NCBI GenBank assembly: GCA_016795285.1 | Contig: JAEUIC010000041.1 | Span: 1 to 64,000, forward strand | Length of the DNA: 64,000 bases | Direction: 5' to 3' | Origin: Planctomycetota bacterium | GTDB taxonomy: Bacteria; Planctomycetota; B15-G4; SIAN01 | In this document: in pieces, positions 18,143-38,988 of the stretch | Position numbering within the stretch: the stretch's first letter is position 1 | Layout: every line of letters begins with the position of its first letter | The notes under the pieces: model-generated | Told to the model about the DNA's origin: nothing | Seen by the model: only the letters and a program-made list of their open reading frames with translations | Databases searched by the model: none | Translations under genes and position numbers: made by a program

Positions 18143-18274
18143 GGTGAATCGAGCGATTTCGCAGGCGCGGCGGGCCGCGGCGAAGAAGTTTCGCTGGTCG
18201 CCTCGCGCAGCATGCAATCCCGTCACGACGAAGAGGGGACCGCTTCCCCGCTCTCGCGTGAAGGGTGCGCACCG

Positions 18275-19450: not shown

Positions 19451-19514
19451 AACGCGTTCCGCAGCGGGAAACCCCGCTCCCGTCGCCGCCGCCGCGCCAG
19501 CCGATCGAGGGACC

Positions 19515-20180
19515 ATGAGCGCACCCTCCTCCCTCCCGACCGCCGCGAACGCCGCGAACGCCGCTCCTGCGCGCCGCTGCGCCGGCCTCGGCTTCGCGCT
19601 GCTGGCGCTCGGCTGGGTCGCCGCGGTCAGCGGCGCGTTCGCGGCGCTCGCGATCTACAAGGCGACGCCGGGCGTGCTGGCCCCGGCGCCGCTCGATTGG
19701 CCGGAAGCCAGCTCGATCGCGCGGCTCCCCGGGCGCGCGCAGCTGCTCTGCTTCGTGCTGCCGCACTGCCCGTGCGCCGAGGCGACGCTCGCCGAGCTGT
19801 CGCGCCTCCTCTCGGCGCGGCCTGCGCAGGCGGAGGTGCACGTGGTGATCGCGCTGCCGCCGGGCGTCGACCCGAGCTGGCGCGAGACCGCCATCGTCGC
19901 CGCCGCCAGCGAGCTGCCCGGCGCGCACCTCACCTTCGACGTCGACCTCGTCGAGTCGGCCCGCTTCGGCGCGACCACTTCGGGGCAGGTGCTGGTCTAC
20001 GACGGCGCGGGGCGGCTCGCGTTCCGCGGCGGCGTCACGCCGTCGCGCGGCCATCGCGGCGAGAACGCCGGATCCGACGCGGTGGCAGCGCTCGTCCGCG
20101 GCGAGGCCGCCCAGCACTCGGTGTGGCCGGTCTTCGGCTGCGAGCTCGCGACGCCGCTCGCGGAAGAGGCGCCGCCGTGA
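19515..20180 (+). CDS. Membrane-anchored thioredoxin-fold protein with CPC motif
   Basis: 221 residues. One transmembrane helix (GFALLALGWVAAVSGAFAAL, about residues 27-50) is followed by an extracytoplasmic domain. LLCFVLPHCPCAEATLAELS places a Cys-Pro-Cys at the position of the thioredoxin CxxC, and the following strands and helices (EVHVVIALPPG, GQVLVYDGAGRLAFRGGVT) fit a thioredoxin fold ending in a GG(V/I)T-type strand. From memory, similar proteins beside planctomycete sensor kinases are sometimes named RedB; this was not checked. Its stop overlaps the kinase start (GTGA), so it may be a redox-sensing or assembly partner of the kinase. Confidence 0.65.
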   Translation: MSAPSSLPTAANAANAAPARRCAGLGFALLALGWVAAVSGAFAALAIYKATPGVLAPAPLDWPEASSIARLPGRAQLLCFVLPHCPCAEATLAELSRLLSARPAQAEVHVVIALPPGVDPSWRETAIVAAASELPGAHLTFDVDLVESARFGATTSGQVLVYDGAGRLAFRGGVTPSRGHRGENAGSDAVAALVRGEAAQHSVWPVFGCELATPLAEEAPP

Positions 20181-22120: not shown

Positions 22121-23304
22121 GCGCGCCGCGGCTGCTCTTCGTCGACGACGAGCCGCACTTCCTCGAGGGGCTGCGCGACCTGCTGCGCCGCCGCCGCCAC
22201 GAATGGGAGGCGCGCTTCGTGCGCAGCGGCGCCGCGGCGCTCGAGGAGCTGGCGCGCGACCCGTTCGACCTGGTGCTGACCGACCTGCAGATGCCGGGCA
22301 TGGGCGGCGTCGAGCTGCTGCAGCGGGTCCGCTCGCTGCAACCGGGAGCGACGCGCCTCGTGCTCTCCGGGGCGACCGACCGCGCCGTGCTCGGGCGCGC
22401 GCTCCTCGTGGCGCATCGATTCGTCGCCAAGCCGTGCGATGCCGGGCGCCTGCAGGCGGTGATCGAGCGCACGTTGGCGCTCCGTGCGCTGCTCGGCGAC
22501 CCGGCCCTGCGCCGTCGCATCGGCGACGTCGAGCGCCTCCCGTCGCCGCCCGCCATCTACGGCGAGCTGCTCGCGGTGGCGGCGCGCCCCGACTCGGGCG
22601 CGTCCGACGTCGCCGCCGTGCTGCAGCGCGATCCGGCGATGGCGGCGAAGGTGCTGCAGGTGGTGAACAGCGCCGCCGTCGGCCTCTGCGAACGCGTGGT
22701 GACCGTCGGGCGCGCCGTCTCGTTCCTCGGGGTCGAGCTGGTGAAGGGGCTCGCGCTGGCGAGCGACGCCTTCGGCTGCGCGGCGCTCGGCACGCTCGAG
22801 CACGGCTTCGTCGAGTCGACGCAACGCCACTCGCTCGCCGTGGCGCAGGTCGCGCGGCGCATCGTGGTCGATCGCGCGCGCGCCGACGAGGCGTTCGTGG
22901 CGGGGATCGTGCACGAGGTCGGCGCGCTGCTGCTCGCCGCGCAGGGAGCGCTGCCGGCCGGCTTCGCGCTGCAGCTCGGCTCCGCCGCGCTGCTCGAGCG
23001 CGAGCGGGCGGAGTGGGGCGTCACGCACGGCGAGGTGGGGGCCTACCTGCTCGGCAGCTGGGGGCTGCCCCACGCGATCGTCGATGCGGTCGCCCGCCAC
23101 CATCGACCGGTGGTGCGCGCGGGGCCGCCCGATGCGGTCGAACTCGCGCTGCACGTCGCCGATGCGCTGGTGGAGGAGCTCGAAGCGGAGGGCGAGCCGG
23201 CGCGCCTCGACCGCGCGGCTCTCGAGGCGGCCGGGGTCGTCGAGCGGCTCCCCGACTGGCGCGCGGTCGCGTCGGCGGTGGTCGCGCCGAGCCGCGTCGC
23301 CTAG
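22117..23304 (+). CDS. Response regulator with HDOD output domain
   Basis: 395 residues. The receiver domain (about 1-120) has the acidic pair in FVDDEP, phospho-acceptor D56 in LTDLQMPG and lysine in FVAKPCD. An HDOD domain spans about 140-340 (RLPSPPAIYGELLAVA, VLQRDPAMAAKVLQVVNSAA, AVSFLGVELVKGLAL, GIVHEVGALLL). HDOD domains resemble HD hydrolases but lack the metal site and act in signalling. The start codon overlaps the kinase stop (ATGA), so kinase and regulator are translationally coupled and very likely cognate. The minus-strand gene downstream ends only 12 bases away. Confidence 0.9.
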   Translation: MSAPRLLFVDDEPHFLEGLRDLLRRRRHEWEARFVRSGAAALEELARDPFDLVLTDLQMPGMGGVELLQRVRSLQPGATRLVLSGATDRAVLGRALLVAHRFVAKPCDAGRLQAVIERTLALRALLGDPALRRRIGDVERLPSPPAIYGELLAVAARPDSGASDVAAVLQRDPAMAAKVLQVVNSAAVGLCERVVTVGRAVSFLGVELVKGLALASDAFGCAALGTLEHGFVESTQRHSLAVAQVARRIVVDRARADEAFVAGIVHEVGALLLAAQGALPAGFALQLGSAALLERERAEWGVTHGEVGAYLLGSWGLPHAIVDAVARHHRPVVRAGPPDAVELALHVADALVEELEAEGEPARLDRAALEAAGVVERLPDWRAVASAVVAPSRVA

Positions 23305-23315
23305 CCGCGCGGCGC

Positions 23316-25967
23316 TCAGCGCTTGGCGGGCTTGCCGTCGAAGAGCGCGGCGAGCTCCTGCTCGAGCCACGCTTCGCGGCGGCGGGCGAGCTCGGTCGGG
23401 TCGAGGCTCGCCTCGAGGACGAGCAGGTCGAGCGTGACCTCGACGTCGCTGTAGGTCATGACGCCGAACTGGCCCGACTGGCGCGTGCCGACCGGCACCT
23501 GGCGCTGCGGGAAGCCCTCGCAGCGGAGCGTCGCCTGCTTGCCGTCGTGGGTCAGCGTCACGTCGTACGCCACGTCCCAGTCGGTGCGCGTCGCGTCGTT
23601 GTCGCTCTCGAACTTGGCGCCGTCGCGCGCCTCGACTCCCGCCATGTCGAGCGTGTTGATCAGCCGCTTGCCGCCGTCGTCGCAGACGAGGATCGAGACG
23701 CTGCAGCGGCAGTTCTCGATGTAGGGCTTCGGCTCGACGTAGCTGAACTGGTAGCGGCAGGTGAGCGGCGCCGCGAACGCCACCTTGCAGCGCCACGCCG
23801 CCTTGCCGCGCATCCGCAGCGCCCCCTTCTCGACCTTCAAGTAGGAGTCGGCGATCGGGTACTGCAGCGCGTAGCTCCCGTGCAGCTCGACGCGCACCGG
23901 CGCCGGCTCGAAGTCTTGCGCCTGCTTCGCGTCCTCGAAGTCCCACGTCACGCGCAGGCGCCCCTCGCCGAGCGACTCCACCTTGCCGGCGAGCCCGAGG
24001 CCCGGCAGCCCGCGCGCCTCGAAGAGCGGCGCCGCGGCGAAGGCGGCGAGCGTCCGCAGCGCCGGCAGCCGCGCGAGGACGAGCGGCTCGCTGCGATGCT
24101 GCGTCAGCAGCGCGCGCACCTGCTCCAGCGCCGCCTCGCCGTGCGCGACGGTCGCCGGTCGCGGCGCGCGCGCGAGCGACTCGATCAGCGCCGCCGCCGC
24201 GCCGCTCTTCAGCAGCGCCGCCGCCTGCGCGCCGTCGTCGCGCAGCGCCACCTCGGGCGGCGTCGCGCCGGCGATCCCCTTCGCCCACGCCTTGCGCCCG
24301 GCGAGCAGCGCCGCGAAGGCGCGCGCCGTCGCGCTGCCCGTCTCGCGCTTCCACTCGCTCATCGTGCGCAGCAGCTCCTCGCAGCCGATCGCCGCGAGCG
24401 GCACGCGCTCGACCACTCCCTTCGCGCCCGACAGCAGCAGCACGTCGCCTTCCACCTCTTGCGCGGTGCCGCTGCGCGCGGCGCCGTCGTGGTCGAACTT
24501 GAGCTTCCGCTTGTCGCCCTTCGCCGCGAGCAGGAACTCGCGCCGCGCGGCCGACAGCTCGACCAGCCGCTCGACGTCGCGCTGCGCCCGCTGCGCCAGC
24601 GGATCGCCCGCCGGCAGCTCGGCCCGCAGCGCCTCGAGCGCGCCCTTCGCGCCGTCGAGGTCGCCGTCGCCCGCGCGCCGCAGCGCCATTCCAAGGCGCG
24701 CTTCCGGCGGCAGCGGCTCCTCGAGCAGCAGCGCCGGCTCGAACGCCGGATCGAGCAGCTTGCTGGTGAAGCCGCTCGCGTTCGCGTCGCCGCCGCTGCG
24801 CCCGCGCTCGGCCGCGCCCGCGGCGCCGCTGCGGGCCGCGCTCGCCGACCCGCCGTCGCCCTTCGCCAGCGCCGCCGCCAGCTCCGGCGAGAGCTGCAGC
24901 TCCTTCTCCAACGAGCCCTTCGCGGCACGCGCCAGGAACTGCGCGAAGCCCGCCTGCAGCGCCGCGGCGTCGACGGCGACCGGCGCCGCCTTCAGCTTCT
25001 CGCGCGTGCCGAGCAGCGCGGCGAGCCGCTCGACCAGCAACGGCCGCAACTTGCCGCCCTCCTCGCGCAGCAGCCAGTGGACGAAGAGCGACGACTCGGC
25101 GAGGAAGGCGTAGCGCACCTCGACCGCCGCGTCGCTGCTCGCGTCGATCGTCGCTCCGGTGCGCTTCGACTGCAGCGCCAGCAGCCCGTTCCAATCGGCG
25201 ACGCGCAGCAGCTCCTCGATCGGCAGCCAGGCGAGCGCGCGCTGCTCCGCATCGAGCAGCCGCGCGACGTACCAGCGCAGCGTCCCGGTCCGCAGCGTGG
25301 CGACGCGCGCCGCCTGGGCGTCACCGTCGTGGCCGGCGAGCGCGAAGGAGAGCCCCTCGCGCACCCAGAGTTCGCGCCCCGGCGCCGCCGGATCGCCTTG
25401 CGCCAGGCCATCGAGCAGCGAGCGCCCCAGCACGTAGAGCGCCTCGGCGCGGTCGCGCGCGTCGTCGGGCGTCTCGAAGATGTCGCGCTTCACCACGCCG
25501 ACGTCGAGCTCGCCGTTCCAGTGGTTCATCCCGCTCGAGTCGGGAGTGCCGCAGAGCTTCCAGTAGTTGCCGAAGTCGCCTTCGCTCGCCAGCACGACGA
25601 GCGTGTCGAGCGCGCGACCGGGCCGACGCGCGGCCGGCAGCGCCGCACCGAGCTCGTCGCGCAGCAGCGCGCGCGCGGCGGCGACCCACGGCTCGCAGAG
25701 CGCCGCGAAGTCGCGCTCGAAGCCGGGCTTCGCGTTGGCCGGGCGCTGCACCAGCCAGAGCGTCGGCGCGAAGTCGCTGCAGGCGGCGAGCTCGACGCGC
25801 TGGAAGTAGGGATGCGTCGGCAGCCGCGCGAGCAGCGCCTCGCGCTCGGCGGCCTGCGCGGCGTCGAGCGGAGCGGCGGACTGCGCGGGCAGCGGAGCGG
25901 CGTCGAGCGGAGCGGCGGAGACGACGGCCGCGGTGATCGTCGCGAAGAGCAGGCGGAGCATCCCCAT
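23316..25967 (-). CDS. Large secreted protein of unknown function
   Basis: 883 residues with a signal peptide (GMLRLLFATITAAVVSAAP) and GGAGAG 6 bases before ATG. Residues 40-330 have the feel of a metallopeptidase-like or DUF1570-like domain (LDTLVVLASEGDFGNYW; ELWVREGLSFALAGHDGD), but no HExxH motif is present, so activity is doubtful. A Ser/Gly/Ala-rich linker and helical region follow. The last 220 residues are a beta-sandwich resembling a concanavalin/LamG-type domain (VTWDFEDAKQAQDFE ... GQFGVMTYSDVEVTLDLL). A 22-bp direct repeat duplicates SAAPLDAA near the signal peptide. The upstream MFS gene ends 42 bases before the start, so cotranscription is possible. No named family was recognised. 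Confidence 0.6.
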   Translation of the reverse strand: MGMLRLLFATITAAVVSAAPLDAAPLPAQSAAPLDAAQAAEREALLARLPTHPYFQRVELAACSDFAPTLWLVQRPANAKPGFERDFAALCEPWVAAARALLRDELGAALPAARRPGRALDTLVVLASEGDFGNYWKLCGTPDSSGMNHWNGELDVGVVKRDIFETPDDARDRAEALYVLGRSLLDGLAQGDPAAPGRELWVREGLSFALAGHDGDAQAARVATLRTGTLRWYVARLLDAEQRALAWLPIEELLRVADWNGLLALQSKRTGATIDASSDAAVEVRYAFLAESSLFVHWLLREEGGKLRPLLVERLAALLGTREKLKAAPVAVDAAALQAGFAQFLARAAKGSLEKELQLSPELAAALAKGDGGSASAARSGAAGAAERGRSGGDANASGFTSKLLDPAFEPALLLEEPLPPEARLGMALRRAGDGDLDGAKGALEALRAELPAGDPLAQRAQRDVERLVELSAARREFLLAAKGDKRKLKFDHDGAARSGTAQEVEGDVLLLSGAKGVVERVPLAAIGCEELLRTMSEWKRETGSATARAFAALLAGRKAWAKGIAGATPPEVALRDDGAQAAALLKSGAAAALIESLARAPRPATVAHGEAALEQVRALLTQHRSEPLVLARLPALRTLAAFAAAPLFEARGLPGLGLAGKVESLGEGRLRVTWDFEDAKQAQDFEPAPVRVELHGSYALQYPIADSYLKVEKGALRMRGKAAWRCKVAFAAPLTCRYQFSYVEPKPYIENCRCSVSILVCDDGGKRLINTLDMAGVEARDGAKFESDNDATRTDWDVAYDVTLTHDGKQATLRCEGFPQRQVPVGTRQSGQFGVMTYSDVEVTLDLLVLEASLDPTELARRREAWLEQELAALFDGKPAKR
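25859..25919 (-). repeat. 22-bp direct repeat in the signal-peptide region
   Basis: The same 22 bases occur at 25859-25880 and 25898-25919, 39 bases apart (in frame). They encode a repeated Ala-Ala-Pro-Leu-Asp-Ala-Ala stretch at the start of the mature protein, apparently a recent short duplication. Confidence 0.85.
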
Positions 25968-27401: not shown

Positions 27402-27447
27402 GGAGGGCAGGCTGCCAGGAGGGGCGGCGGATGATACGGTCGGGCGC

Positions 27448-29247
27448 ATGGCCCTCGCGCGCACCCTCGCCGTCCTGCCGTTCCGCGCCTTCGACGACGC
27501 GTCGAGCGAGTGGTTCGCGCGCGGCTTCGCCGAGGAGCTCTGCACCGAGCTCGGCCGCTGCGCCGCGCTCGAGGTGGTCCATCCGTGGAGCTCGTTCGCG
27601 CCGCGGCCGGACGACGCGACGCCGGCGGCGATCGGCGCAGAGCTCGGTGCCGCGCACCTGCTCGACGGCAGCGTGCGGCGCGAGGGGGAGCAGCTGGTCG
27701 TCGCCGCGCGGCTGATCGAGGCGCCGAGCGGACGGCAGGCGTGGGCCGATCGCTTCGCGCGGCCGGCCGCCGACCTGCCGGCGCTGCAGCGCGACATCGC
27801 GGTCGAGGTGGCGGGCGCGCTGGCCGCGGCGTTCGATCGCAAGCTGCTCGCCGAGGCGCGCCGTCGCCCGCTGCAGAGCCTCGCGGCGTACGAGTGCTGG
27901 CTGCGCGGCAACGAGCTGCTGCGCGGCGGCACCGTCGCCCACGACGACCGGGCGCGCGCGCTGTTCGAGCGGGCGCTCGAGCTCGATCCCGGCTTCGCGC
28001 GGGCGTGGGCCGGCATCTCGCTCTCGCACTTCAACGAGTGGAGCTGCCAGGCGTGGGAGCGGTGGGACGCGACCGAGCGGCTCGCCTACGACGCGGCGCG
28101 GCGCGCGGTCGACCTCGACGACTCCGACCACGTCACGCAGCTGATCCTCGGCCGCATCCATCTCTATCGCCGCGAGTTCGACGCCGGCGAGCGGCGGCTC
28201 GCGCTGGCGCTGCAGCTGAACCAGAGCGACGCCGATGCGCTGGCGCAGGCGGCGCTGGGCTTCACCTACCTCGGCCGCCACGCGGAGGCGGTGGCGCTGG
28301 TCGAGAAGGCGATGCGCCTCCATCCGCGCCATCCCGAGTGGTACGGGCTCGTGCTGGCCTACCCGAAGTTCCTGCAGGGCGAGTGGGAGGAGAGCCTGCG
28401 CCTCGCCGGTCGCGCCGACGGCTTCGCGGTCGACCTGCCCGCCTATGCGGCGGCGGCGCACGCGCTGCTGGGGCGACCCGATGCGGCGCGCCGCAGCGTG
28501 CAGCAGTTCCGCGACGAGTTCCGCCAGAAGATCCTCTTCGGCCGCGCGCCGGAGCCGGGGGAGGAGCTGCGCTGGCTGCTCCACGTCAGCCCGTTCCGCG
28601 CCGCGCGCGACCTCGAGCTGCTGATCGACGGCTTCCGCCGCGCCGGGCTGGTCGACGAGGCGGCGCCGGCCACGCCGATCGCGCCGGCGGCGCCGAGCGG
28701 GCCGATCGCGACGCTCCGGCAGCGCCCGCGGCTGCGTTGCGAAGGGGAGGCGTGGAGCTTCCGCTTCGAGGGGCGCGAGGTGCGCCTCGTCGCGCTGAAG
28801 GGGTTCGCCGACCTCGCGACGCTGCTCGGCGCGCCCGGTCGCGAGTTCCACTGCCTCGAGCTCGCCGGTCGGCCGGAGGCGAGCGATCGCGGCGAGGCGG
28901 CGCTCGATGCCACGGCGCGGCGCGCTCTCGAGGCGCGCGTGCGCGAGCTGCAGGAGGAGATCGACCTCGCGGCGGAGCGCCACGACGCCGCCACCGACGA
29001 ACGGGCGCGCCTCGAGCTCGACGCCATCGCCGATTCGCTGCGCGGCGCGCTCGGCATCGGCGGCAAGGCGCGGCGCGTCGGCGACTCGATCGAGAAGGCG
29101 CGCACGGCTGTCACGTGGCGCATCCGCAGCGCCATCCGCAAGCTCGCCACCGCGCTGCCGCCGCTCGGCGCCCACCTCGAGCGAGCGATCCGCACCGGCA
29201 CCTTCTGCAGCTACGCCCCCGAGCGGCCGCTCGACTGGGAGCGCTGA
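27448..29247 (+). CDS. TolB/FlgO-like plus TPR protein with a LuxR/AAA-regulator-type C-terminal domain
   Basis: 599 residues in three parts. Residues 1-125 resemble the FlgO/TolB-like domain found with adenylate cyclases and TPR regulators (LAVLPFRAF, WFARGFAEELCTELG, GAELGAAHLLDGSVRREGEQL). Residues 150-390 are TPR-type helix pairs (LELDPGFARAWAGISL, ALQLNQSDADALAQAALGF). Residues 430-599 match the conserved tail of large actinobacterial and myxobacterial AAA/LuxR or cyclase regulators: FEGREVRLVALKGFADLATL, a helical hairpin with EEIDLAAERHDA, ALGIGGKARR, and the ending HLERAIRTGTFCSYAP. No cyclase, kinase or helix-turn-helix domain is visible, so this looks like the back half of such regulators standing alone. 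Function unknown. An ATG 48 bases upstream is possible. Confidence 0.72.
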   Translation: MALARTLAVLPFRAFDDASSEWFARGFAEELCTELGRCAALEVVHPWSSFAPRPDDATPAAIGAELGAAHLLDGSVRREGEQLVVAARLIEAPSGRQAWADRFARPAADLPALQRDIAVEVAGALAAAFDRKLLAEARRRPLQSLAAYECWLRGNELLRGGTVAHDDRARALFERALELDPGFARAWAGISLSHFNEWSCQAWERWDATERLAYDAARRAVDLDDSDHVTQLILGRIHLYRREFDAGERRLALALQLNQSDADALAQAALGFTYLGRHAEAVALVEKAMRLHPRHPEWYGLVLAYPKFLQGEWEESLRLAGRADGFAVDLPAYAAAAHALLGRPDAARRSVQQFRDEFRQKILFGRAPEPGEELRWLLHVSPFRAARDLELLIDGFRRAGLVDEAAPATPIAPAAPSGPIATLRQRPRLRCEGEAWSFRFEGREVRLVALKGFADLATLLGAPGREFHCLELAGRPEASDRGEAALDATARRALEARVRELQEEIDLAAERHDAATDERARLELDAIADSLRGALGIGGKARRVGDSIEKARTAVTWRIRSAIRKLATALPPLGAHLERAIRTGTFCSYAPERPLDWER

Positions 29248-29470
29248 GGGCGCGAGCGGGCCTCCCGGACCGAGCCCGACGAAGCGCCGCGCCGTGGCCG
29301 GCGCTCGGCAGCCGCGGCCGGTCATCGGCGAGCGAGCGGCGAACGCGGTCGAGGCGATGGCGCGGCGCGCCGCCTCGGGGGCGCCCCGCTCGATCGGGTT
29401 GGCACCGCCGTTGCCAAGAGGAACCCGGCGACGGCGCGCGGAGCGCCGCGCGTTCGCGATGGAGCCTCCG

Positions 29471-29686
29471 ATGGCGCGCTTCTGCTTCCGACTGGCGAGC
29501 TTCGCCGCTGCCGCTGCCTTCGGCTACGTCGCCTTCGCTCCCGTCGCGGCCCCGAAGGGGCGTGCGACTTCCTCGATGCCACGAACCACCGAAGCGCGCA
29601 GCGCTCCGGCGCCTGACCGAGATCGCCCGGGTGACTCAGAACTGCGACCCTGTGACATCCCGCGATCTCGGTCGGGCACTTCCTGA
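29471..29686 (+). CDS. Small possible secreted protein, 71 residues
   Basis: A short frame with a Shine-Dalgarno GGAG about 7 bases before ATG. It encodes a hydrophobic Ala/Phe-rich N terminus (ARFCFRLASFAAAAAFGYVA) like a signal peptide, then a hydrophilic Pro/Arg/Ser-rich tail with one Cys. A strong stem-loop followed by TCTTT starts 24 bases after the stop. No homologue was recognised and a spurious ORF remains possible; the SD, leader and terminator together make it plausible. Confidence 0.4.
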   Translation: MARFCFRLASFAAAAAFGYVAFAPVAAPKGRATSSMPRTTEARSAPAPDRDRPGDSELRPCDIPRSRSGTS

Positions 29687-29709
29687 GAAGAGCTTGGCTG
29701 CTGGGTAGG

Positions 29710-29747
29710 AGCGGGGCCTGCGCTTGGCGGCGCGGGCCCCGCTTCTT
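29710..29747 (+). terminator. Rho-independent terminator
   Basis: AGCGGGGCC and GGCCCCGCT (29710-29718, 29735-29743) form a perfect 9-bp stem with further GC pairs inside, followed by TCTTT. It closes the small secreted-protein frame and/or the TPR regulator transcript. Confidence 0.7.
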
Positions 29748-30037
29748 TCGCGTCGGCTCTTGCGTCCCGCGCCTTCCGATGTGAGGCGCGGCCTCACGCC
29801 TCCACGGCAGGAACGCGTGGAGCGGTCGATGGCCTTCATCCGCGGATGCTTCGGCGGCAGCGACGCCGCTCCTTCGCCCGAGTGCGGCGAGGGAGCGACG
29901 TCGGCGGCGCCGCCGGCGACCGCGAGGGCGAGGGAGAGCGCCGGCCCGACGCCGCCGGCGATCGATCCGCCGCCCGCTCCGCGTGCTCCCGCGGCCGCCG
30001 ATCCGGCGCCCGCTCCCCCCAATTCCGGGAGCTCGTC
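29748..30037. other. Hairpin-rich spacer upstream of the fatty acid hydroxylase gene
   Basis: No convincing gene. Three further inverted repeats follow the terminator: GTGAGGC-GCG-GCCTCAC (29781-29797, perfect), CTCCACG/CGTGGAG with 9-base loop (29800-29822, perfect) and an 11-bp arm pair with one wobble (29868-29896). The rest is Pro/Ala-biased GC-rich sequence, with a GGGAG Shine-Dalgarno just before 30038. The 17-bp palindrome at 29781 could be an operator; the set could also be a structured leader RNA. Confidence 0.4.
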
Positions 30038-30910
30038 ATGAACTGGTTCGATACGGTCGCCGAGTACCTCGCCTCGCTCGGGTCCGATTTCTTCCTCGCC
30101 TTCCCGATCGCGCTGTTCGCCGGCTTCGCGCTGGCGGAGCGGCTCTGGCCGGCGCGCGTGCAAGCGGCGGTGCGCGGCTGGAAGCTGCATGGCGTGCTGG
30201 CCTTCGCGGTGACGCTCACGCTGTCGCTGAAGGCGCCGCTCCTGTGGGACGAGTGGCTCGCGGGGCACACGCTGATCGACGCGCGCGGGCTCGGCCATGC
30301 GGGCGGCGCGGCGCTCGCGTTCGTGGTGCTGCAGCTCGCCATCTACGCGTGGCATCGCGCGCTGCATCGCGTCGACTTCCTTTGGCGCCACTTCCACCAG
30401 ATGCACCACAGCGCGGAGCGGGTCGACGTGTTCGGCGCCTTCCTCTTCCATCCGCTCGACATCACGGCGTTCGCCTTCGTCGGCAGCCTCGTGCTGGTCG
30501 GCGGCGTCGGCGTCACCGCGCCGGCGGCGATGGCGGCGGGCGCGCTCACGACCTTCTGCAGCTTCTTCCAGCACGCGAACCTGCGCACGCCGCGCTGGCT
30601 CGGCTTCCTGCTGCAGCGGCCCGAGAGCCACGCGCTCCACCATCGCCGCGGCGTGCACGCCTGGAACTACGCCGACTTCCCGCTCTGGGACCTCGTGTTC
30701 GGGACGTTCCGCAAGCCGGCCCGCTTCGAGGGGGTGGGCGGCTTCTGGGACGGCGCGTCGCGGCAGATCGGCGCGCTACTGATCGGTCGCGACGTGAGCG
30801 TGCCGCCGCACGTGCGGAGCGAGCCGATCGCGCCCGCGAACGAGCCCGCGAACGAGCCGGTGGCCGCGCCGACGACCGCGCCGCGCCGCGATCTCGAGTG
30901 CGCCGTGTGA
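30038..30910 (+). CDS. Sterol desaturase / fatty acid hydroxylase family membrane enzyme
   Basis: 290 residues with several transmembrane helices (for example FLAFPIALFAGFALAE and LAFVVLQLAIYAWH). The di-iron His clusters of the family are present: HRALHR, HFHQMHH, and HALHHRRG toward the C terminus. Enzymes of this family hydroxylate or desaturate sterols, carotenoids, fatty acids or alkyl glycerols in the membrane; the substrate cannot be inferred. The C terminus carries a short duplicated Pro-Ala-Asn-Glu unit and a soluble Pro/Ala tail. GGGAG lies 7 bases before the ATG. It converges on the receiver gene with a GC-rich hairpin between. Confidence 0.88.
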   Translation: MNWFDTVAEYLASLGSDFFLAFPIALFAGFALAERLWPARVQAAVRGWKLHGVLAFAVTLTLSLKAPLLWDEWLAGHTLIDARGLGHAGGAALAFVVLQLAIYAWHRALHRVDFLWRHFHQMHHSAERVDVFGAFLFHPLDITAFAFVGSLVLVGGVGVTAPAAMAAGALTTFCSFFQHANLRTPRWLGFLLQRPESHALHHRRGVHAWNYADFPLWDLVFGTFRKPARFEGVGGFWDGASRQIGALLIGRDVSVPPHVRSEPIAPANEPANEPVAAPTTAPRRDLECAV

Positions 30911-30911
30911 C

Positions 30912-30941
30912 GGGTGCGCGGGCGGCCGGCCGCGAGCACCC
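30912..30941. terminator. GC-rich hairpin between convergent genes
   Basis: GGGTGC/GCACCC outer arms enclose a self-complementary GCGGCCGGCCGC core. It sits in the 35-base gap between hydroxylase and receiver stop codons. No U-tract, so bidirectional termination is inferred from position. Confidence 0.5.
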
Positions 30942-30945
30942 TTCG

Positions 30946-31590
30946 CTACGCGGTCGGCTTGCCCGCGCGCGGCTTGCTGGAGTCGTTGAACGCCTTCATC
31001 TCCTCGAGCAGCTTGCTCATGTCCAGCGCCTCGACCGGCTCGAGGACGATGTTGCCCTCGTCGTCGCGATCGACCTGGCCGAGCGCGTCGCCGCCCGTCG
31101 CGCGACGCGCGGGTGCGATCGCGTCGTCGGCATCGTCGAGATCGCCGACGAGCGGATCCGCCTGGCGCGCCGCCTGCCGCTTCGCCGCTTCGAGCAGCCG
31201 CCGGCTCTCGACCAGCAGCGCGTGGTGGTCGAGCGCGCTGCGGATGCTCTGCTTCAGGTCGGACGGGTCGGTCGGCTTGAGGAAGAAGCGCCAGATGCCG
31301 CCGTCGTTCACCGCCTTCATGGCGTCGTGGAGGGTCGCCTGGCCGGTCAGCATCATGCGGATGGTGAGCGGCCAGCGCTTCGCGACCTGCGTGAGGAAGT
31401 CGGCACCGCTCATGCCCGGCATGCGCTCGTCGGAGATCACCACCGATGCAGCGCGCTCCTGCAGCAGCTTGAGCCCCGCCTCGCCGCCGGTCGCGGTCAC
31501 GATCTCCCACGGCTCCTTGCGCAGCGCGATGGCGAGCGTCGCGGTGATCGAGGGCTCGTCGTCGACGAGCAGGATGCGCGGCTTGTTCAT
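30946..31590 (-). CDS. Response regulator, receiver domain with helical tail
   Basis: 214 residues. The receiver domain (about 1-125) is complete: acidic pair in LLVDDEP, phospho-acceptor D54 in ISDERMPGMSG, Thr in LTGQAT and lysine in FLKPTDP. The last 90 residues are charged and helical (ESRRLLEAAKRQAARQAD; then MSKLLEEMKAF), without a known output domain. Its SDERMPG and L(S/T)GQA blocks closely match those of the receiver-EAL protein near 18.4 kb, suggesting paralogy. The start overlaps the stop of the degraded kinase gene (TGATG), so the pair was built as a coupled kinase/regulator operon; the partner is now damaged. Confidence 0.87.
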   Translation of the reverse strand: MNKPRILLVDDEPSITATLAIALRKEPWEIVTATGGEAGLKLLQERAASVVISDERMPGMSGADFLTQVAKRWPLTIRMMLTGQATLHDAMKAVNDGGIWRFFLKPTDPSDLKQSIRSALDHHALLVESRRLLEAAKRQAARQADPLVGDLDDADDAIAPARRATGGDALGQVDRDDEGNIVLEPVEALDMSKLLEEMKAFNDSSKPRAGKPTA

Positions 31591-32801
31591 CACTTCGACT
31601 CCGTGGCAAGCGGGAGGCGGAGCACGATGGTGCTGCCGCCGTCCTGCTTGTCGATCTGCTGGATGACGCCGCCGTGGCGGCGCACGATGACTCGCTCGAG
31701 CGGGTCGAGCGCTGGCGTGGTAGCGACGCTGCAGGAGACGCTGAGCTCGACGTGGAAGCCGCGGCGCGACGTGCCGAGCACGATCTTGCCGCGCGCGCCG
31801 GCGCCTGGCTGCTCGGCGATCGCGGCGCTCGCGCATTCGAGCAGCGCGATCAACGCTTCGGACAGCTCGCCGATCTGGCAGCGCACCTTCGGCAGCCCCG
31901 CGGCGAGGTGCAGCTCGACGGCGGAGTGCGGCTCCCAGCCGTGGCGCGTGAGGCTCACGCAGTGGTGGACTAGCGCGTTCAAGTCGATCGGGGCGGCTTC
32001 GCGCCCGCCCCCGTCGGCCACCGCGCGCGTCGAGTCGACCACCGTGGCGATGCGGCGCAGCCCCTCGAGCGCGCGCTCGGCGGCGGCCGGCACCTCGCGT
32101 TGCGCGAAGGGGAAGTCGGCGTCGGCGATCGCCTTCGTCGCGAACCGCGCCGTGTCGGCCGTCTCCGGGTCGCGGCTCGCGGAGTCGATCAGGCGCGGCA
32201 ACGTGGCGTGCAGGGGCGCGAGCTCGACGTAGCTGTCGCGCAGGAAGCGCAGCGTGTCGCCGACGAACTGGAGCGGCGTGTTGATCTCGTGGGCGATGCC
32301 GTCGGCCAGCCGGCCGAGCGCCGCCGAGCGCTGTTGCTGCGCGCGCGCCTCGACCACCTCGCGGCGCAGGTCGAGCTCGACCGCGGCGAGCAGGTAGCCG
32401 CTCGGTTCGCCGGCCTCCTGCGAGAGCACGGTGAGCGCGCAGTGGACCGCGACGCGCGCGCCGTCGGGCCGCACGAAGGCGCGCGGCTCGCCGTCGAAGA
32501 GCCCGGCACCGTCGCGGGCGGCCTGCTGCAGCGGCGCGAAACCGCCCTCGATCAGCTCGGAGAGGATCGTCCCGTCGAGCAGCGCCGGCTCGCGACCGAG
32601 CAGCTCCGCCGCCTAGGCGTTGGCGAACGTGACGTAGCCGTCGCCGTCCGCCACCAGCAGCGCCGCGCAGCGCGCGCCATCGAGCGCGGCGCGCAGCGCC
32701 TCGAGCGCGCGGCACTTGCGCCGCTCGGCGGCGAGTTCGCGCTTCAACTCGGCGACGCCGGGCTCGGCGGTCGTGAGAGGTGGTTCGGGACGGTCGGTCA
32801 T
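31590..32801 (-). pseudogene. PAS histidine kinase gene with internal TAG and lost ATP-binding motifs
   Basis: The frame starts at ATG 32801 (TDRPEPPLTT...), with a coiled coil and the beginning of a PAS domain (LLVADGDGYVTFANA). Codon 63 (32613-32615) is TAG, after which the same frame continues as AAELLGREPALL, the expected rest of the PAS domain. Downstream, GIAHEINTPLQFVGDTLRFL keeps the phospho-acceptor His region. The ATPase part is degenerate: the N box reads EALIALLECASAAI without its Asn residues, and the DxGxG, F and G2 boxes are missing. A protein could restart at ATG 32474 but should not bind ATP normally. It is either a decaying kinase or a non-catalytic adaptor with a read-through or sequencing-error stop. 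TGATG links it to the receiver gene. Confidence 0.75.
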
Positions 32802-32847
32802 CGCGAGCTCCGGAAGCGACGCCTCCATCCGCGAACTGCTGCGCGGG

Positions 32848-32853
32848 TAGGCT
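32848..32853 (+). promoter_or_regulatory. Putative −10 element for the U32 gene
   Basis: TAGGCT, 67 bases before the GTG start, in the divergent gap between the degraded kinase and the U32 gene. It fits the TANNNT pattern; no −35 seen. Confidence 0.25.
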
Positions 32854-32919
32854 GATCCGCAGCGCGCTAGATCGACTCCCGATCCCCGTGCGCTCCAGTG
32901 CGAAAAAAAGGCCCCTCCC

Positions 32920-35589
32920 GTGCATTCGCCCGAGCCGTTCCAATTCCCCGGTCCGCGCCGCGCCGCCGAGCTGCTCGCTCCGGCGGGCGACATGGAGTGC
33001 GTGCGGGCCGCCATCGAGAACGGCGCCGACGCCGTCTACTTCGGCCTGCAGGACGGCTTCAACGCGCGCGCTCGCGCCACCAACCTCGCGTTGGCGACGC
33101 TGCCCGACGTGCTGCAGGAACTGCACCGCCGCGGCGTGAAGGGCTACGTCGCCTTCAACACGCTGGTCTTCGAGCACGAGCTCGCGGCCGCCGAGGAGAA
33201 GCTGCGCCGGATCGCCGAGGCGGGGGCCGACGCGATCATCGTGCAGGACCTCGGCATCGCCCGCCTCGCGCGCGCCGTCTCGCCCGACCTGCCGCTGCAC
33301 GCCTCGACGCAGATGACGCTGTCGACCGCCGAGGGCTGCGAGTTCGCGCGCCGCTGCGGCGTCTCGCGCGCGATCCTGGCGCGCGAGCTCAGCGTCGAGG
33401 AGATCGCCCGCATCCACGCCGCGACCGACCTCGAGCTCGAGGTCTTCGTCCACGGCGCGCTCTGCGTCAGCTGGAGCGGGCAGTGCCTCACCAGCGAGGT
33501 GTGGGGCGGCCGCTCGGCCAACCGCGGCGAGTGCGCGCAGGCGTGCCGCATGCCCTACACGCTCGACGTCGACGGGCAGCACCAGGAGCTCGGGGCGGTG
33601 CGCTACCTCCTGTCGCCGAAGGACCTCTCGGCGCTCGACCTGCTGCCGGAGCTGCTCGCGGCGGGCGTCGTCTCGTTCAAGGTCGAGGGGCGGTTGAAGA
33701 CGCCCGAGTACGTCGCGCAGGTGACCGCGACCTATCGGCGCGCACTCGATCAGGCGCTGCGCAGCGGCACCGTCGAGTTGCGCGACAGCGAGCGGCGCGA
33801 CCTCGAGCAGACCTTCTCCCGCGGCCTCGCGCCCGGCTTCCTCGCCGGCGTGAACCACCAGCGGTTGGTCGAGGGGCGCAACCCGAAGAAGCGCGGCGTC
33901 TTCCTCGGCTGGGTCGCCGACGCGAACCTGCCGCTCCATCGCGTGACGATCGCGCTCGAGGCGCCGTTGAAGCGCGGCGACGGCGTCGTCTTCGAGGGGC
34001 CCGATCCCGAGGCGGGCGAGGCGGGCGGCTCGATCGTCGACGTGCGCGTCGGCGGGCGCGTGCTGCAGGGCGAGGCGGCGCCGCCGTCGCCGTCGGAGGT
34101 CGCGCGTGCCGCTCGGCCGGGCGAGCCGTGGCTGGTCGAGCTGCAGTTCGCGCGCGACCACGGCCCCGACCTCGCGCAGGTCGAGATCGGGGCGCGCGTC
34201 TTCAAGACCAAGGATCCCGAGCTCGAGAAGCGGCTGCGCGCCACCTTCGAGGGCGACCCGCGCCGCCGCATCAAGATCGAGCTGTCGGTGCGCGGGGCCG
34301 CCGGTGCGCCGCTCGAGGTGACGGCGCGCGATGGCGACGGGAACGAGGCGACGGTGGCGTCGACCATGGCGCTCGAGCCGGCGCGCAACCGGCCGCTCAC
34401 GCCGGCGGTGCTGGCCGAGCAGTTCGGCCGCCTCGGCGGGACGATCTTCGAGCTGGCGCACGGCCACGCCTCGGTGGCGAGCGAGCTGGCGGAGCCGCTG
34501 ATCGCGCCGCTCTCCGAGCTCTCGCGCATGCGGCGCCAGCTGGTAGAGCAGCTCGCCGCGGTGCGCGCCGCGAGCGTCCGCTGGCAGGTGGTCGCCGAGC
34601 CGGCGTTGGCGCGGCTGGCGCCGGCGACCGCGCGGGTCGGGGCGCCGGCGGTGGTGCCCGCCGCGGCGCCGCCCTCGTCCGCGGCGGCGTCCCGCGACGC
34701 GCGCGACGGCTTCGAGCTCTCCGTGCTGGTGCGCGACGACGCGCAGGTCGAGGCGGCGCTGGCGGCCGGCGTGCAGCGGATCTACCTCGATTACCTCGAC
34801 CTGGTCGGCCTCGGCCACGCGGTGGAGCGGGTGCGGGCGGCGGGGTGCCACGCGCTGCCGGCGTCGACGCGGATCGCCAAGCCGGGCGAGGAGAAGACGC
34901 TCGCGCGGTTGCTGGCGCTGGCGCAGGACGGCCTGCTGGCGCGCCACCTCGGGGCGCTCGAGGAGGTGGCGACGCGCCGCGCCGCGGGCGATGCGGCGGC
35001 GCGCGCGCTGCAGCTGGTCGGCGACTTCAGCTTGAACGCGGCCAACGGGCTCACCGCCGAGGTGCTGCTCGACCGCGGCGTCGACCTGCTGACGCCGAGC
35101 TTCGACCTGAACGCCGAGCAGCTGCTGGCGCTGCTCGACCACGTGGCGGCCGAGCGGCTCGAGGTGGTGATCCACCAGCACCTGCCGCTCTTCCACATGG
35201 AGCACTGCGTCTTCGCCCACCTGCTGTCGAACGGCGCCGACTTCCGGACCTGCGGCCGCCCGTGCGAGCGCCACGCGATCGGGTTGAAGGACGACAAGGG
35301 GTGGCTCCATCCGGTGCTGGCCGACGTCGGCTGCCGCAACACGCTCTTCCACCACCGACCGCAGAGTGCCGCCGAATGGCTGCCGCGCTTCCGCGACGCC
35401 GGCCTCGCCCGCTTCCGCATCGAGCTGCTGCGCGAGTCGCGCGACCAGGCGGAGGCGGTGATCGAGCTCTACCGAGCGGCGCTCCGCGGCGAGGTGGAGC
35501 CGAAGGCGCTGTTCAAGGAGCTGAATGCCGAGGGGAAGTTCGGCGTCGTCGGGGTGACGCGCGGGACGCTGCCGGTCGTCGGGCGGTGA
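32920..35589 (+). CDS. U32 family protein (RlhA/YdcP-like) with extended C terminus
   Basis: 889 residues from a GTG preceded by an A-rich Shine-Dalgarno (aaaaaaagg, 7 bases away). The N-terminal TIM-barrel-like U32 domain starts ELLAPAGDMECVRAAIENGAD. The U32 signature E-x-F-x2-G-A-L-C-x4-G-x-C lies at 174-189 with one departure at its end, followed by NRGECAQACRMPY. The middle contains a DUF3656-like part, and the C terminus has the Cys cluster seen in RlhA-type proteins (MEHC, RTCGRPCERHAIGLKDD, DVGC). E. coli RlhA hydroxylates C2501 of 23S rRNA; other U32 proteins act on tRNA or ubiquinone precursors. Fe-S binding and RNA hydroxylation are plausible here but inferred. It is longer than RlhA (about 650 residues). 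Confidence 0.85.
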   Translation: MHSPEPFQFPGPRRAAELLAPAGDMECVRAAIENGADAVYFGLQDGFNARARATNLALATLPDVLQELHRRGVKGYVAFNTLVFEHELAAAEEKLRRIAEAGADAIIVQDLGIARLARAVSPDLPLHASTQMTLSTAEGCEFARRCGVSRAILARELSVEEIARIHAATDLELEVFVHGALCVSWSGQCLTSEVWGGRSANRGECAQACRMPYTLDVDGQHQELGAVRYLLSPKDLSALDLLPELLAAGVVSFKVEGRLKTPEYVAQVTATYRRALDQALRSGTVELRDSERRDLEQTFSRGLAPGFLAGVNHQRLVEGRNPKKRGVFLGWVADANLPLHRVTIALEAPLKRGDGVVFEGPDPEAGEAGGSIVDVRVGGRVLQGEAAPPSPSEVARAARPGEPWLVELQFARDHGPDLAQVEIGARVFKTKDPELEKRLRATFEGDPRRRIKIELSVRGAAGAPLEVTARDGDGNEATVASTMALEPARNRPLTPAVLAEQFGRLGGTIFELAHGHASVASELAEPLIAPLSELSRMRRQLVEQLAAVRAASVRWQVVAEPALARLAPATARVGAPAVVPAAAPPSSAAASRDARDGFELSVLVRDDAQVEAALAAGVQRIYLDYLDLVGLGHAVERVRAAGCHALPASTRIAKPGEEKTLARLLALAQDGLLARHLGALEEVATRRAAGDAAARALQLVGDFSLNAANGLTAEVLLDRGVDLLTPSFDLNAEQLLALLDHVAAERLEVVIHQHLPLFHMEHCVFAHLLSNGADFRTCGRPCERHAIGLKDDKGWLHPVLADVGCRNTLFHHRPQSAAEWLPRFRDAGLARFRIELLRESRDQAEAVIELYRAALRGEVEPKALFKELNAEGKFGVVGVTRGTLPVVGR

Positions 35590-35883
35590 AGCTCGGAAGC
35601 CGAGCCGCGCTGCGCGGTCTGCCGTCGCGCTGTGTGGCGCCGCGCCGGTCGCGGGGCGCATCCGCTCGCGAGGAGGGCTGAACGGAGTTCCGAGCGGCGG
35701 CCGGTCTCGTCCGCCCGCCCGGGGCGCTCCGGCGCGCGGCGGGGCATCCTCGGTGTAGTCGAACCGGCACGGCGCGTGCACAATGGGTCGCGGCCCCCGC
35801 CGCCCCCCGATGCCCCCAGGGCCCCCCCCGGGCTGTTCGTTAGCTGCGGCTGCCGCACTTGGCGCCGCGAGGAGTGTCCGGAC

Positions 35884-38800
35884 ATGAGGACCAACCGTTC
35901 TGAACTCGTCTCCGCCGCGCTGGCCGCGGGCACGCGCCGCGCTTCGGCGGTGGCCTGGGTGACGGCCCTGGGTGCCGGCGCGACGCTCTGCCTCACGGCG
36001 TGCGGCGGCAGCGGCGGCACCGGCAGCGGGCCCGCCGCGTACGCGCGCCAGGCGACGCTCCTCTCGGTCCGCTTCCCGGATCCCAACGACGTCAACTTCG
36101 AGGCGGAGGAGAGCGCGCCGCAGAACGCGCCGGTGGTGCAGACCATCGAGTTCACGTTCAGCGGCAGCCCCGATCCCAACCGCATCAACGCGACGGTGCT
36201 GCCGATCGTCGATCCGCAGAACCGACCGGTGCGCGGTCACTACGACGTCGACGGCGCGATCGTCACCTTCATCCCCGATCTGCCGGTCCGCCCGATCTCG
36301 ACGCTGCCGAGCGGCGCCTTGGACAACGGCGGCGCGGGCCTCGAATTCAACACCGCGTACACGTTGCGCGCCGGGCCGCTCACCTTCGCGTTCGTCGCGG
36401 CCGTCGATCCGGCGCTGCTCGCCGCCTATCCCGATGCGACCGACCCGGCGGGCATCTACCTGCCGTTCCGGACCATGGCGACGCCGACGGCCGATGCCTT
36501 CCGCGCGATCGCGGCGACGGCGCCGCAGCTCGTCGAGGTGTCGCCGCTCGACGGCGCGACCGGCGTCTCGCCGAACTTCTTCAGCGATCCCGACGGCCTC
36601 TTCGCCGAGCGTCCCGTCTTCACGCTCGTCTTCGACGGCCCGCTCAATCCCGACTCGACCAACATCAACGACACGATCTTCGAGCTGATCGACCTCGACG
36701 ACCGTCCGACGATCTTCCCCGACGGCCTGCCGCTCGGCATCGACGTCGAGCTGGTCGAGAACGCGATCGACCGCGCGGTCGTCGCGGTGCGCCCCTCCGG
36801 CATCCTGCCGTTCGGCCACCTGCTGGCGCTGCAGCACGACCTCGAGCTGAAGGGGCTGGCGGAGAACGGCTCGCCCGCCGGCGGTCCGGTGGTCGCGACC
36901 ACGTTCACGGTCGCCGCCGATCCCTCCGGCACGCTGCGCGATGCGCTCGTCGAGGATTTCGACGGCGACGAACGCGAGGAGACCGACATCGACCAGATCG
37001 GCTCGGGCAACGTGCTGGCCGACTGGGACCGGCGCGACTCGAACGTCCTGCAGGCGGCGCTCGAGTTCGACGGCGACGGCAGCATCGGCCGCTTCCTGCC
37101 CAATGCTCCGGCGACCGGCGACACGGTGACCATCGTGCTCGACACGACGGAGCAGCTCTTCCCGCTGCTCGACGGCTCCACGCCCGATGCCATCCCGGGC
37201 ACCAGGGCGACGAACGGCGTGTTCCACTTCACCGACATCGACATCCCCGACGGCGTGATCATCGTGCCGCAGGGCAACAACCCGCTGGTCTTCAAGGCGA
37301 GCGGCTCGGTGCGCATCGCCGGCGACATCCTGCTGAGCGGCGACGACGGCTCGAGCGAGTTCGCCTACGACTCCTCGATCACCTCGATCCCGGGCGGCCC
37401 GGCGCGCGCCGGCGGCGGTCGCGGCGGCGATTCCCACCCGGTCACCTTCTTCCCGGCCGACACCATCAACTACCTCACGCTCGTGTCGCCCACCTTCGCG
37501 AAGACGGGACTCGGGATGAACCCGGTCACCGGCGCGATGGAGGCGATCGGCGGCACCGGCGCGCAGAGCGGCGCGCTCGACACCAAGGACAGCAAGGGCA
37601 AGTACCAGACGAATGACGAGATGGGGAACTGCGACGAGTTCCGCCAGATCAGCACGGCCGCGAAGATCGCGGGCGGCGGCGGCGGCTCGATGTTCCGCGC
37701 CGGCGCGACGCCGAAGGACACGAGCGGCAACATCCTGCACGGCATCGCCAACGTCCATCCCGACGGCACCGGCAAGTGGATCCTCGACACCACCAGCAAC
37801 ACCTGCCTCGCCGGCGTCGGCGGTTCCCACCCGTTCGCGGCGGACGGCACGAACACCAACGACTTCTTCGGCAAGCTCGGCCAGCTCACCCGCCTGATCG
37901 GCGGCCAGGGCGGCGGCGGCGGCGGGACGCAGTGCGACTCCTACTTCTGCGGCAACTGGTGCGACATCGACACCGATCCGGCCAACGACGGCTGCTGCGC
38001 GAACGAGGACAACCTGCCGGCGCAGGGGCGCTCGCCCTCGGTCGGCGACTCGCGCGGCGGCGGCGGCGGCGGTGGCGGCGGCTCCTTCATGCTCCAGGCG
38101 CTCGGTGACATCACGCTGGTGTCGACCGCGCTGATCGAGGCGTCGGGCGGCAACGGCGGCGGCGGCGAAGGCATCGCCTGCTCCTACTGGGGCGGCGGCG
38201 GCGGCGGCGGCGCGGGCGGGATGATCATCCTGCAGTCGGCGTCGACGATCCTCGTCGAGTCGGGCGCGGTGCTCGACGTGCGGCGCGGCCTCGGCGACAA
38301 CGCGGCGCCCAACAACGACTACGCCGACTGCAGCAACTCGAGCAACGGCGTGGCGGGCGACGGCGGCGACGGCGGCCACGGGATGATCCAGCTGCAGGTG
38401 CCGATCGGTTCGAAGGCGACGGTCGTGAACCCGGGCACCGACGTGAACGGCAGCGTGCGGCCGATCGCCTCGTGGGTCGATCCGAACAACACGCTCGCGC
38501 CCGTCGAGTTCACCCCGCTCAGCGTCGCGCTGTCGCGGTGGCACGACTTCGGTCGCGTCATCGCGCGCGGGCCGACCGGCACCAACCCGGTCTTCAGCTT
38601 CAGCGGCCTCGACGGCAGCGGTTACGTGGCGACCGATGGTTCGGGCAACGTGCTCTCGCCCGCGACCACCGACATCGTGGTCGGCTACCTCGGCCAGATC
38701 GACACGCTGACCGGGACCTACGCGCCGGGCGAGGAGCCGCGCGCCAACTTCGTCCCGACCAACGCGAAGGTGAAGGTCGAGTTCCAGGGCGCCGACGCGA

Positions 38801-38988
38801 TCGTCGAGGGCTCGAAGGAGGTCGACCCCGCGTCGCTCACCAGCTGGTCGTCCGACGTCACCGTCGCCAACGGCAAGCAGTTCCTCCGCTGGCGGATCAC
38901 CTTCGACACCACCTTCGACGGCAGCCCGCTCACCCCGAACACCCGGCGGCCGATCGTCGAGCGGATCGAGGTGCACGCCGAGTTCTGA
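35884..38988 (+). CDS. Large Gly-rich surface lipoprotein with Ig-like N-terminal domains
   Basis: 1034 residues. The signal ends in a lipobox (CLTACGGSG). Two SbsA/Big_5-like domains follow (VVQTIEFTFSGSPDPNRINA; PQLVEVSPLDGATGVSPNFF). The middle contains glycine runs of 6-9 residues alternating with short beta segments (SFMLQALGDITLVSTALIEA, GMIILQSASTILVESGAVLD), which suggests a stacked or beta-helical surface structure. A Cys-rich insert (CDSYFCGNWCDIDTD ... CCANED) lies near residue 690. The C terminus is a beta domain (FLRWRITFDTTFDG). No enzymatic motif; adhesin or envelope component is a guess. GAGGAG precedes the ATG. The 294-base gap before it holds runs of C (8 at 35822-35829) and a CACAAT hexamer at 35779 that could be a −10 element. 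Confidence 0.78.
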   Translation: MRTNRSELVSAALAAGTRRASAVAWVTALGAGATLCLTACGGSGGTGSGPAAYARQATLLSVRFPDPNDVNFEAEESAPQNAPVVQTIEFTFSGSPDPNRINATVLPIVDPQNRPVRGHYDVDGAIVTFIPDLPVRPISTLPSGALDNGGAGLEFNTAYTLRAGPLTFAFVAAVDPALLAAYPDATDPAGIYLPFRTMATPTADAFRAIAATAPQLVEVSPLDGATGVSPNFFSDPDGLFAERPVFTLVFDGPLNPDSTNINDTIFELIDLDDRPTIFPDGLPLGIDVELVENAIDRAVVAVRPSGILPFGHLLALQHDLELKGLAENGSPAGGPVVATTFTVAADPSGTLRDALVEDFDGDEREETDIDQIGSGNVLADWDRRDSNVLQAALEFDGDGSIGRFLPNAPATGDTVTIVLDTTEQLFPLLDGSTPDAIPGTRATNGVFHFTDIDIPDGVIIVPQGNNPLVFKASGSVRIAGDILLSGDDGSSEFAYDSSITSIPGGPARAGGGRGGDSHPVTFFPADTINYLTLVSPTFAKTGLGMNPVTGAMEAIGGTGAQSGALDTKDSKGKYQTNDEMGNCDEFRQISTAAKIAGGGGGSMFRAGATPKDTSGNILHGIANVHPDGTGKWILDTTSNTCLAGVGGSHPFAADGTNTNDFFGKLGQLTRLIGGQGGGGGGTQCDSYFCGNWCDIDTDPANDGCCANEDNLPAQGRSPSVGDSRGGGGGGGGGSFMLQALGDITLVSTALIEASGGNGGGGEGIACSYWGGGGGGGAGGMIILQSASTILVESGAVLDVRRGLGDNAAPNNDYADCSNSSNGVAGDGGDGGHGMIQLQVPIGSKATVVNPGTDVNGSVRPIASWVDPNNTLAPVEFTPLSVALSRWHDFGRVIARGPTGTNPVFSFSGLDGSGYVATDGSGNVLSPATTDIVVGYLGQIDTLTGTYAPGEEPRANFVPTNAKVKVEFQGADAIVEGSKEVDPASLTSWSSDVTVANGKQFLRWRITFDTTFDGSPLTPNTRRPIVERIEVHAEF

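Follow-up and report, generated by a model that had tools for sequence, protein, structure and literature searches.

The gene at positions 31590–32801 of the window (the 64,000-nucleotide stretch of Planctomycetota contig JAEUIC010000041.1 that was analysed) reads as a histidine kinase gene, carries a stop codon within its frame, and overlaps an intact receiver gene. The locus raises the question of whether this gene is simply decaying or had become a non-catalytic partner of the receiver before it acquired the stop. A preliminary description of the DNA offered decay and a surviving phospho-adaptor as alternatives; the evidence fits both when they are placed in sequence, with catalytic loss while the phosphoacceptor was kept, and then the stop.

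The kinase gene and its in-frame TAG

The features of the gene and of its downstream neighbor are listed here.

31590–32801, minus strand: degenerate histidine kinase gene, with ATG at 32801 and TGA at 31592–31590 (403 codons if read through), in the order PAS domain, His helix, lid-less ATPase remnant
32361–32696, minus strand: PAS domain, codons 36–147, broken by the TAG (Pfam PAS_4, E = 5e-7, with X at codon 63)
32613–32615, minus strand: in-frame TAG, codon 63 of the kinase, within the PAS domain
32472–32474, minus strand: GTG in mid-PAS, the first possible restart codon past the TAG, with no clear Shine-Dalgarno sequence
30946–31590, minus strand: receiver-domain response regulator of 214 aa (Pfam Response_reg, E = 7e-21)

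The kinase ATG at 32801 is preceded by GGAG. With the TAG written as X, Pfam PAS models crossed codon 63 (PAS_4 over residues 46–147 and PAS over residues 36–138); therefore, the TAG breaks one domain and does not mark a boundary between two genes. Third-position GC was 0.90 upstream of the TAG and 0.94–0.98 downstream; the two sides are thus alike in coding character. The coordinates, the PAS models, and third-position GC all agree with the earlier observation of a TAG at codon 63 within a PAS domain, in a frame that continues as a kinase. No frameshift was found across the 403 codons, and third-position GC was maintained. Judged by its sequence as assembled, the gene would be classed as a pseudogene, with a disabling TAG in the PAS domain of an otherwise homologous coding frame; it does not have the frame open through sensor and transmitter that is expected of a catalytic HisKA kinase.

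The TAG is uncommon for this genome and beyond chance. An in-frame stop was present in none of the 45 HATPase_c domains and none of the 56 receiver domains of the genome, and of more than 100 relatives in 392 genomes just one contained an internal stop. It is possible that the TAG is a single consensus error in the draft assembly. Because the block containing the kinase is missing from both same-genus genomes and the kinase has no ortholog in the same genus or class, no relative is able to date the TAG. A member of the family elsewhere in the phylum (G273:C48:10261–11055) has a single in-frame TGA in its transmitter region.

The window DNA is ~74% GC, and spurious frames stay open for up to 2676 aa. 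Because long spurious frames are usual in DNA this rich in GC, we did not accept that an open frame shows the gene to be functional. The 2676-aa frame itself (30946–38976, minus strand) is antisense to the U32 gene and the genes following it; it has the same stop and frame as the receiver, and is a very-high-GC artefact that could mislead automatic annotation.

The phosphoacceptor helix and the ATPase remnant

Conservation was scored in an alignment with 36 relatives, in which columns conserved in ≥90% were counted as conserved. The parts of the transmitter are as follows.

32220–32333, minus strand: phosphoacceptor (DHp alpha1) helix with an intact H box, GIAHEINTPLQFVGD; 14 of 16 family-conserved columns kept
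31605–31997, minus strand: ATPase (CA) remnant without G1, F, and G2 by alignment, predicted with homologs to be a lid-less Bergerat sandwich
31818–31862, minus strand: degenerate N box
31689–31724, minus strand: site of an in-frame deletion, seen in alignments, of ~23 residues relative to the family, comprising most of the F box, the ATP lid, and G2

The phosphoacceptor His is codon 171 (32289–32291) and lies in the H-box motif GIAHEINTP. The His helix is nearly unaltered, reading GIAHEINTPLQFVGDTLRFL in the focal protein vs. GIAHEINTPTQFVGDNxRFL in the 36 aligned relatives; the Pfam HisKA match had an E value of 0.003, below the Pfam cut-off. The ATPase part is greatly changed. Its N box is IALLECASAAI in place of LNLLVNAAHAI (ALLECASAAI vs. 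the alignment consensus NLIVNAAHAI), the asparagines having been lost by substitution; G1 is SCSVATTP vs. DTGxGIP; the F box is LDPL vs. FDPFFTTK; and G2 is deleted. The HATPase_c match covered the last third of the domain only and had an E value of 0.13; the 45 HATPase_c domains found in the genome do not include this one. The alignment and this match bear out the earlier reading that N, G1, F, and G2 are absent and the His box is kept. The loss of catalytic residues is as expected of a pseudo-histidine kinase.

The focal gene kept 14 of the 16 conserved columns in the His helix (14–16 in other members) and 11 of the 36 in the ATPase part (31–36 in other members), a difference with a Fisher p of 2e-4, or of 0.0095 when the deleted columns were excluded. 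The excess length of its terminal branch was 4.3 times the median for the ATPase part and 2.7 times for the His/linker part. In simulations of neutral decay that were matched to the N-box loss and took a paralog rather than an ancestor as the starting sequence, only 0.3–1.3% of runs retained at least 8 of 9 H-box residues. With GC-biased mutation, a median of 1 stop was expected. Because one stop is what GC-biased decay would give, the open frame argues little for function, and H-box retention is the better argument.

AlphaFold2 run with homologs gave a confident model of a lid-less Bergerat sandwich (pLDDT 86.7) that leans on the intact homologs; the fold predicted from the single sequence was uninformative (pLDDT 49.8). 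ChpT, a histidine phosphotransferase discussed below, was not named among the 50 Foldseek matches listed.

Relatives, receiver, and surrounding block

All of the ~50 distinct relatives that we read kept N, G1, F, and G2; those in which regular expressions missed a box contained box variants (YDPFF, FELFF, NSAH), not losses. Because these relatives keep their boxes, we conclude that the loss is specific to the focal gene. No ortholog was found in the same genus or class, nor in 392 phylum genomes and GTDB contigs, which yielded only boxed kinases, mostly 26–37% identical. Two further features are needed here.

19451–22120, plus strand: intact kinase of the HEINTP family, with all four boxes (the kinase at 20.2 kb)
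27447–32966 (approximate limits), no strand assigned: block of ~5.5 kb containing a TPR gene, a fatty-acid hydroxylase gene, the receiver gene, and the kinase gene

The focal gene shares its H-box signature, linker, and gene partnership with kinases of the HEINTPxQ(F/Y)VGDN type, such as that at 19451–22120 and those of the G004 and G008 clusters. Their cluster partners are REC-HDOD, REC-HD, or REC-EAL proteins plus single-domain receivers. These kinases retain N, G1, F, and G2, whereas the focal gene lost all four and has a stop. The receivers most closely related to the focal one lie beside such kinases, and in many phylum genomes the kinases and receivers that best match the focal two are co-located, together with REC-HDOD/HD genes.

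The kinase nearest to the focal kinase in the tree, on a split with a UFBoot value of 96, is that of L079 (CALCXM010000169, uncultured bacterium, 5440–6831, plus strand), which is 33% identical over the His and ATPase parts. Because both are long branches, long-branch attraction is possible for this grouping. The two have the residues LGRL, NTPLQ, VD..R, and AVE..LAA.LP in common, but the input domain of the L079 kinase is REC and that of the focal kinase is PAS. The boxes of the L079 kinase are mostly retained (HATPase E = 2e-19), with His in place of the first N-box Asn and GKG in place of GTG in G2. Next to this divergent REC-HisKA-HATPase kinase, in a back-to-back arrangement, lies a standard cluster of the HEINTP family.

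The receiver keeps D10/D11, D54, T82, and K105 and has its own GGAG upstream. Its ATG overlaps the kinase TGA, so that the TGATG coupling reported previously between the kinase stop and an intact receiver gene was seen here also.

The 5.5-kb block is missing in both same-genus genomes, in which the MFS and U32 genes are adjacent with ~140 bp between them. By this sequence comparison, the block is species-specific among the genomes at hand. Inspected for signs of a mobile element, its edges had no notable repeats and no clear GC shift, a plasmid search gave short weak matches only, and a promoter and terminator scan found none. Beside the MFS gene, the gene at 23316–25967 has ~47% identity to its same-genus counterpart; the MFS and U32 proteins have ~70–72%.

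Proposed course of events and alternatives

The reading that we prefer, with a probability of roughly 0.5, is that the gene became a pseudo-histidine kinase: catalysis was lost, the phosphoacceptor was kept, and the TAG followed, either as a recent nonsense mutation or as a single consensus error. The retention of 14/16 columns in the His helix vs. 11/36 in the ATPase part suggests this order. A kinase of the HEINTP/QFVGDN family would have lost ATP catalysis by substitution of the N-box asparagines and in-frame deletion of the F box, lid, and G2, the phosphoacceptor helix and the frame being retained meanwhile. Because helix and frame were kept, the lid-less protein would then probably have served the adjoining receiver as a non-catalytic partner, in docking, phosphotransfer, or phosphatase activity fed by phosphate from another kinase. 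The TAG would have come last and, if it is a mutation, would have ended this role in the lineage that was sequenced. From the gene as assembled, no full-length protein would be made, and the receiver would be translated from its own start. The asymmetric conservation supports selection on a putative non-catalytic form, for which no ortholog was found, and the deletion preserves the frame with third-position GC kept throughout. Against this reading, no part of the family is more constrained than its H-box columns. In addition, the His/linker part of the focal gene evolves fastest among the 37 members, which fits general relaxation as well.

Plain decay is the next most probable explanation, a serious one that we nevertheless regard as doubtful. 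The gene would be a pseudogene in a species-specific block, decaying ever since the loss of ATP binding, with the TAG as its latest lesion and the receiver left an orphan. This explanation stays alive because the focal branch is the fastest in both domains, being the longest of the family in each. It is also consistent with the absence of the block from both same-genus genomes and with the ~1 stop expected under GC-biased mutation after such change. Failed horizontal transfers, moreover, are reported to be a major source of pseudogenes in prokaryotes (PMC522871). Against simple decay are the phosphoacceptor helix, which is far better kept than the ATPase part, the H box, which rarely survived in simulated neutral decay, and the 403 codons without a frameshift and with third-position GC intact.

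It is unlikely that the gene works as assembled, by restart at an internal codon such as GTG 32474, which would give a PAS-less phosphoacceptor protein of 294 aa. This GTG is in frame, precedes the entire His helix, and is the sole restart codon ahead of it; the coupling of the receiver start with the kinase stop makes it conceivable that there is some selection for translating the gene to its end. Yet the GTG lies in mid-PAS, 46 codons past the TAG, and without a clear Shine-Dalgarno sequence, and the RNA structure between TAG and GTG was the same as in shuffles; thus survival by restart, as proposed earlier, looks weak. Slightly less probable still is a more specific version in which the TAG is real and fixed and internal initiation yields a phosphoacceptor protein with neither PAS domain nor lid; this protein would pass phosphate from a hybrid or paralogous kinase on to the adjoining receiver, as a ChpT-like adaptor of independent origin in the HEINTP family.

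A chimeric or collapsed consensus that made both the deletion and the TAG would be an assembly artefact, which we consider very improbable. The assembly is a draft of 47 contigs, but a simple assembly error would not yield a deletion that keeps the frame and lies among substituted boxes, and no stop occurs in any of the 45 other HATPase domains or the 56 receiver domains. Least probable is the read-through or recoding of the TAG as an amino acid, also raised previously: although the frame and coding statistics are unaltered across codon 63, TAG is the ordinary stop of 3 of the 26 called genes in the window, a pattern search of the ~91% complete genome for a tRNA with anticodon CUA matched only tRNA-Arg(UCU) and tRNA-Leu(CAG), and the RNA 3′ of the TAG was no more structured than shuffles (z 0.24).

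Three known proteins resemble the pseudo-histidine kinase that we propose; these likenesses are analogies, not membership. ChpT, a histidine phosphotransferase of Caulobacter, is a dimer with a His-helix hairpin and a C-terminal Bergerat-like domain; it does not bind ATP, is missing the usual lid, and passes phosphate on by way of its His (PMC3433190). The focal protein, as modeled, would likewise combine a phosphoacceptor hairpin with a lid-less ATPase-like domain; unlike ChpT, it has a PAS domain, and the likeness is one of predicted architecture with a putative phosphorelay role. The pseudokinase DivL, which binds a receiver, also has PAS domains and reuses the kinase fold without catalysis (PMC4211667). 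In DivL, the His is replaced by Tyr, and because Y550H restores autokinase activity its ATPase part is usable (PMC4211667), whereas in the focal gene the His remains and the ATP site is gone. ChrS of C. glutamicum, like the focal gene, is a paired kinase that lost its ATPase part, in its case by a laboratory-evolved frameshift in the CA domain and in the focal gene by substitutions plus an in-frame deletion. The His of ChrS is not needed for its effect, and a paralogous kinase drives the ChrS receiver instead (PMC9491836). If the lid-less form was selected, the locus would be a fresh and probably independent case of a kinase turned phosphoacceptor or docking partner, with its receiver; if it was not, the locus shows decay of a kinase–receiver pair in a species-specific block, the ATP site going before the phosphoacceptor. 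Either way the event is of an ordinary type, involves no new mechanism, and leaves the understanding of two-component signalling unchanged.

For a non-catalytic partner, phosphate would come from elsewhere. Against at least 15 hybrid kinases, the genome contains only 2 Hpt domains, which leaves room for an unorthodox phosphotransfer partner, and the hybrid kinases are possible donors. The kinase at 20.2 kb, previously suggested as the donor, found no support; it is flanked by receivers of its own, in a REC-EAL gene (18212–19450) and a receiver gene (from ~22135), and the focal gene has a closer relative elsewhere. As a partner of the focal gene it had family membership only to recommend it, and the tree places the focal gene elsewhere. 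This kinase has a long, possibly membrane-bound N-terminus. Together, the REC-EAL, HEINTP-family kinase, and receiver genes at 18212–22464 form a conserved type of two-component cluster, which in other genomes of the phylum occurs with REC-HDOD/HD outputs.
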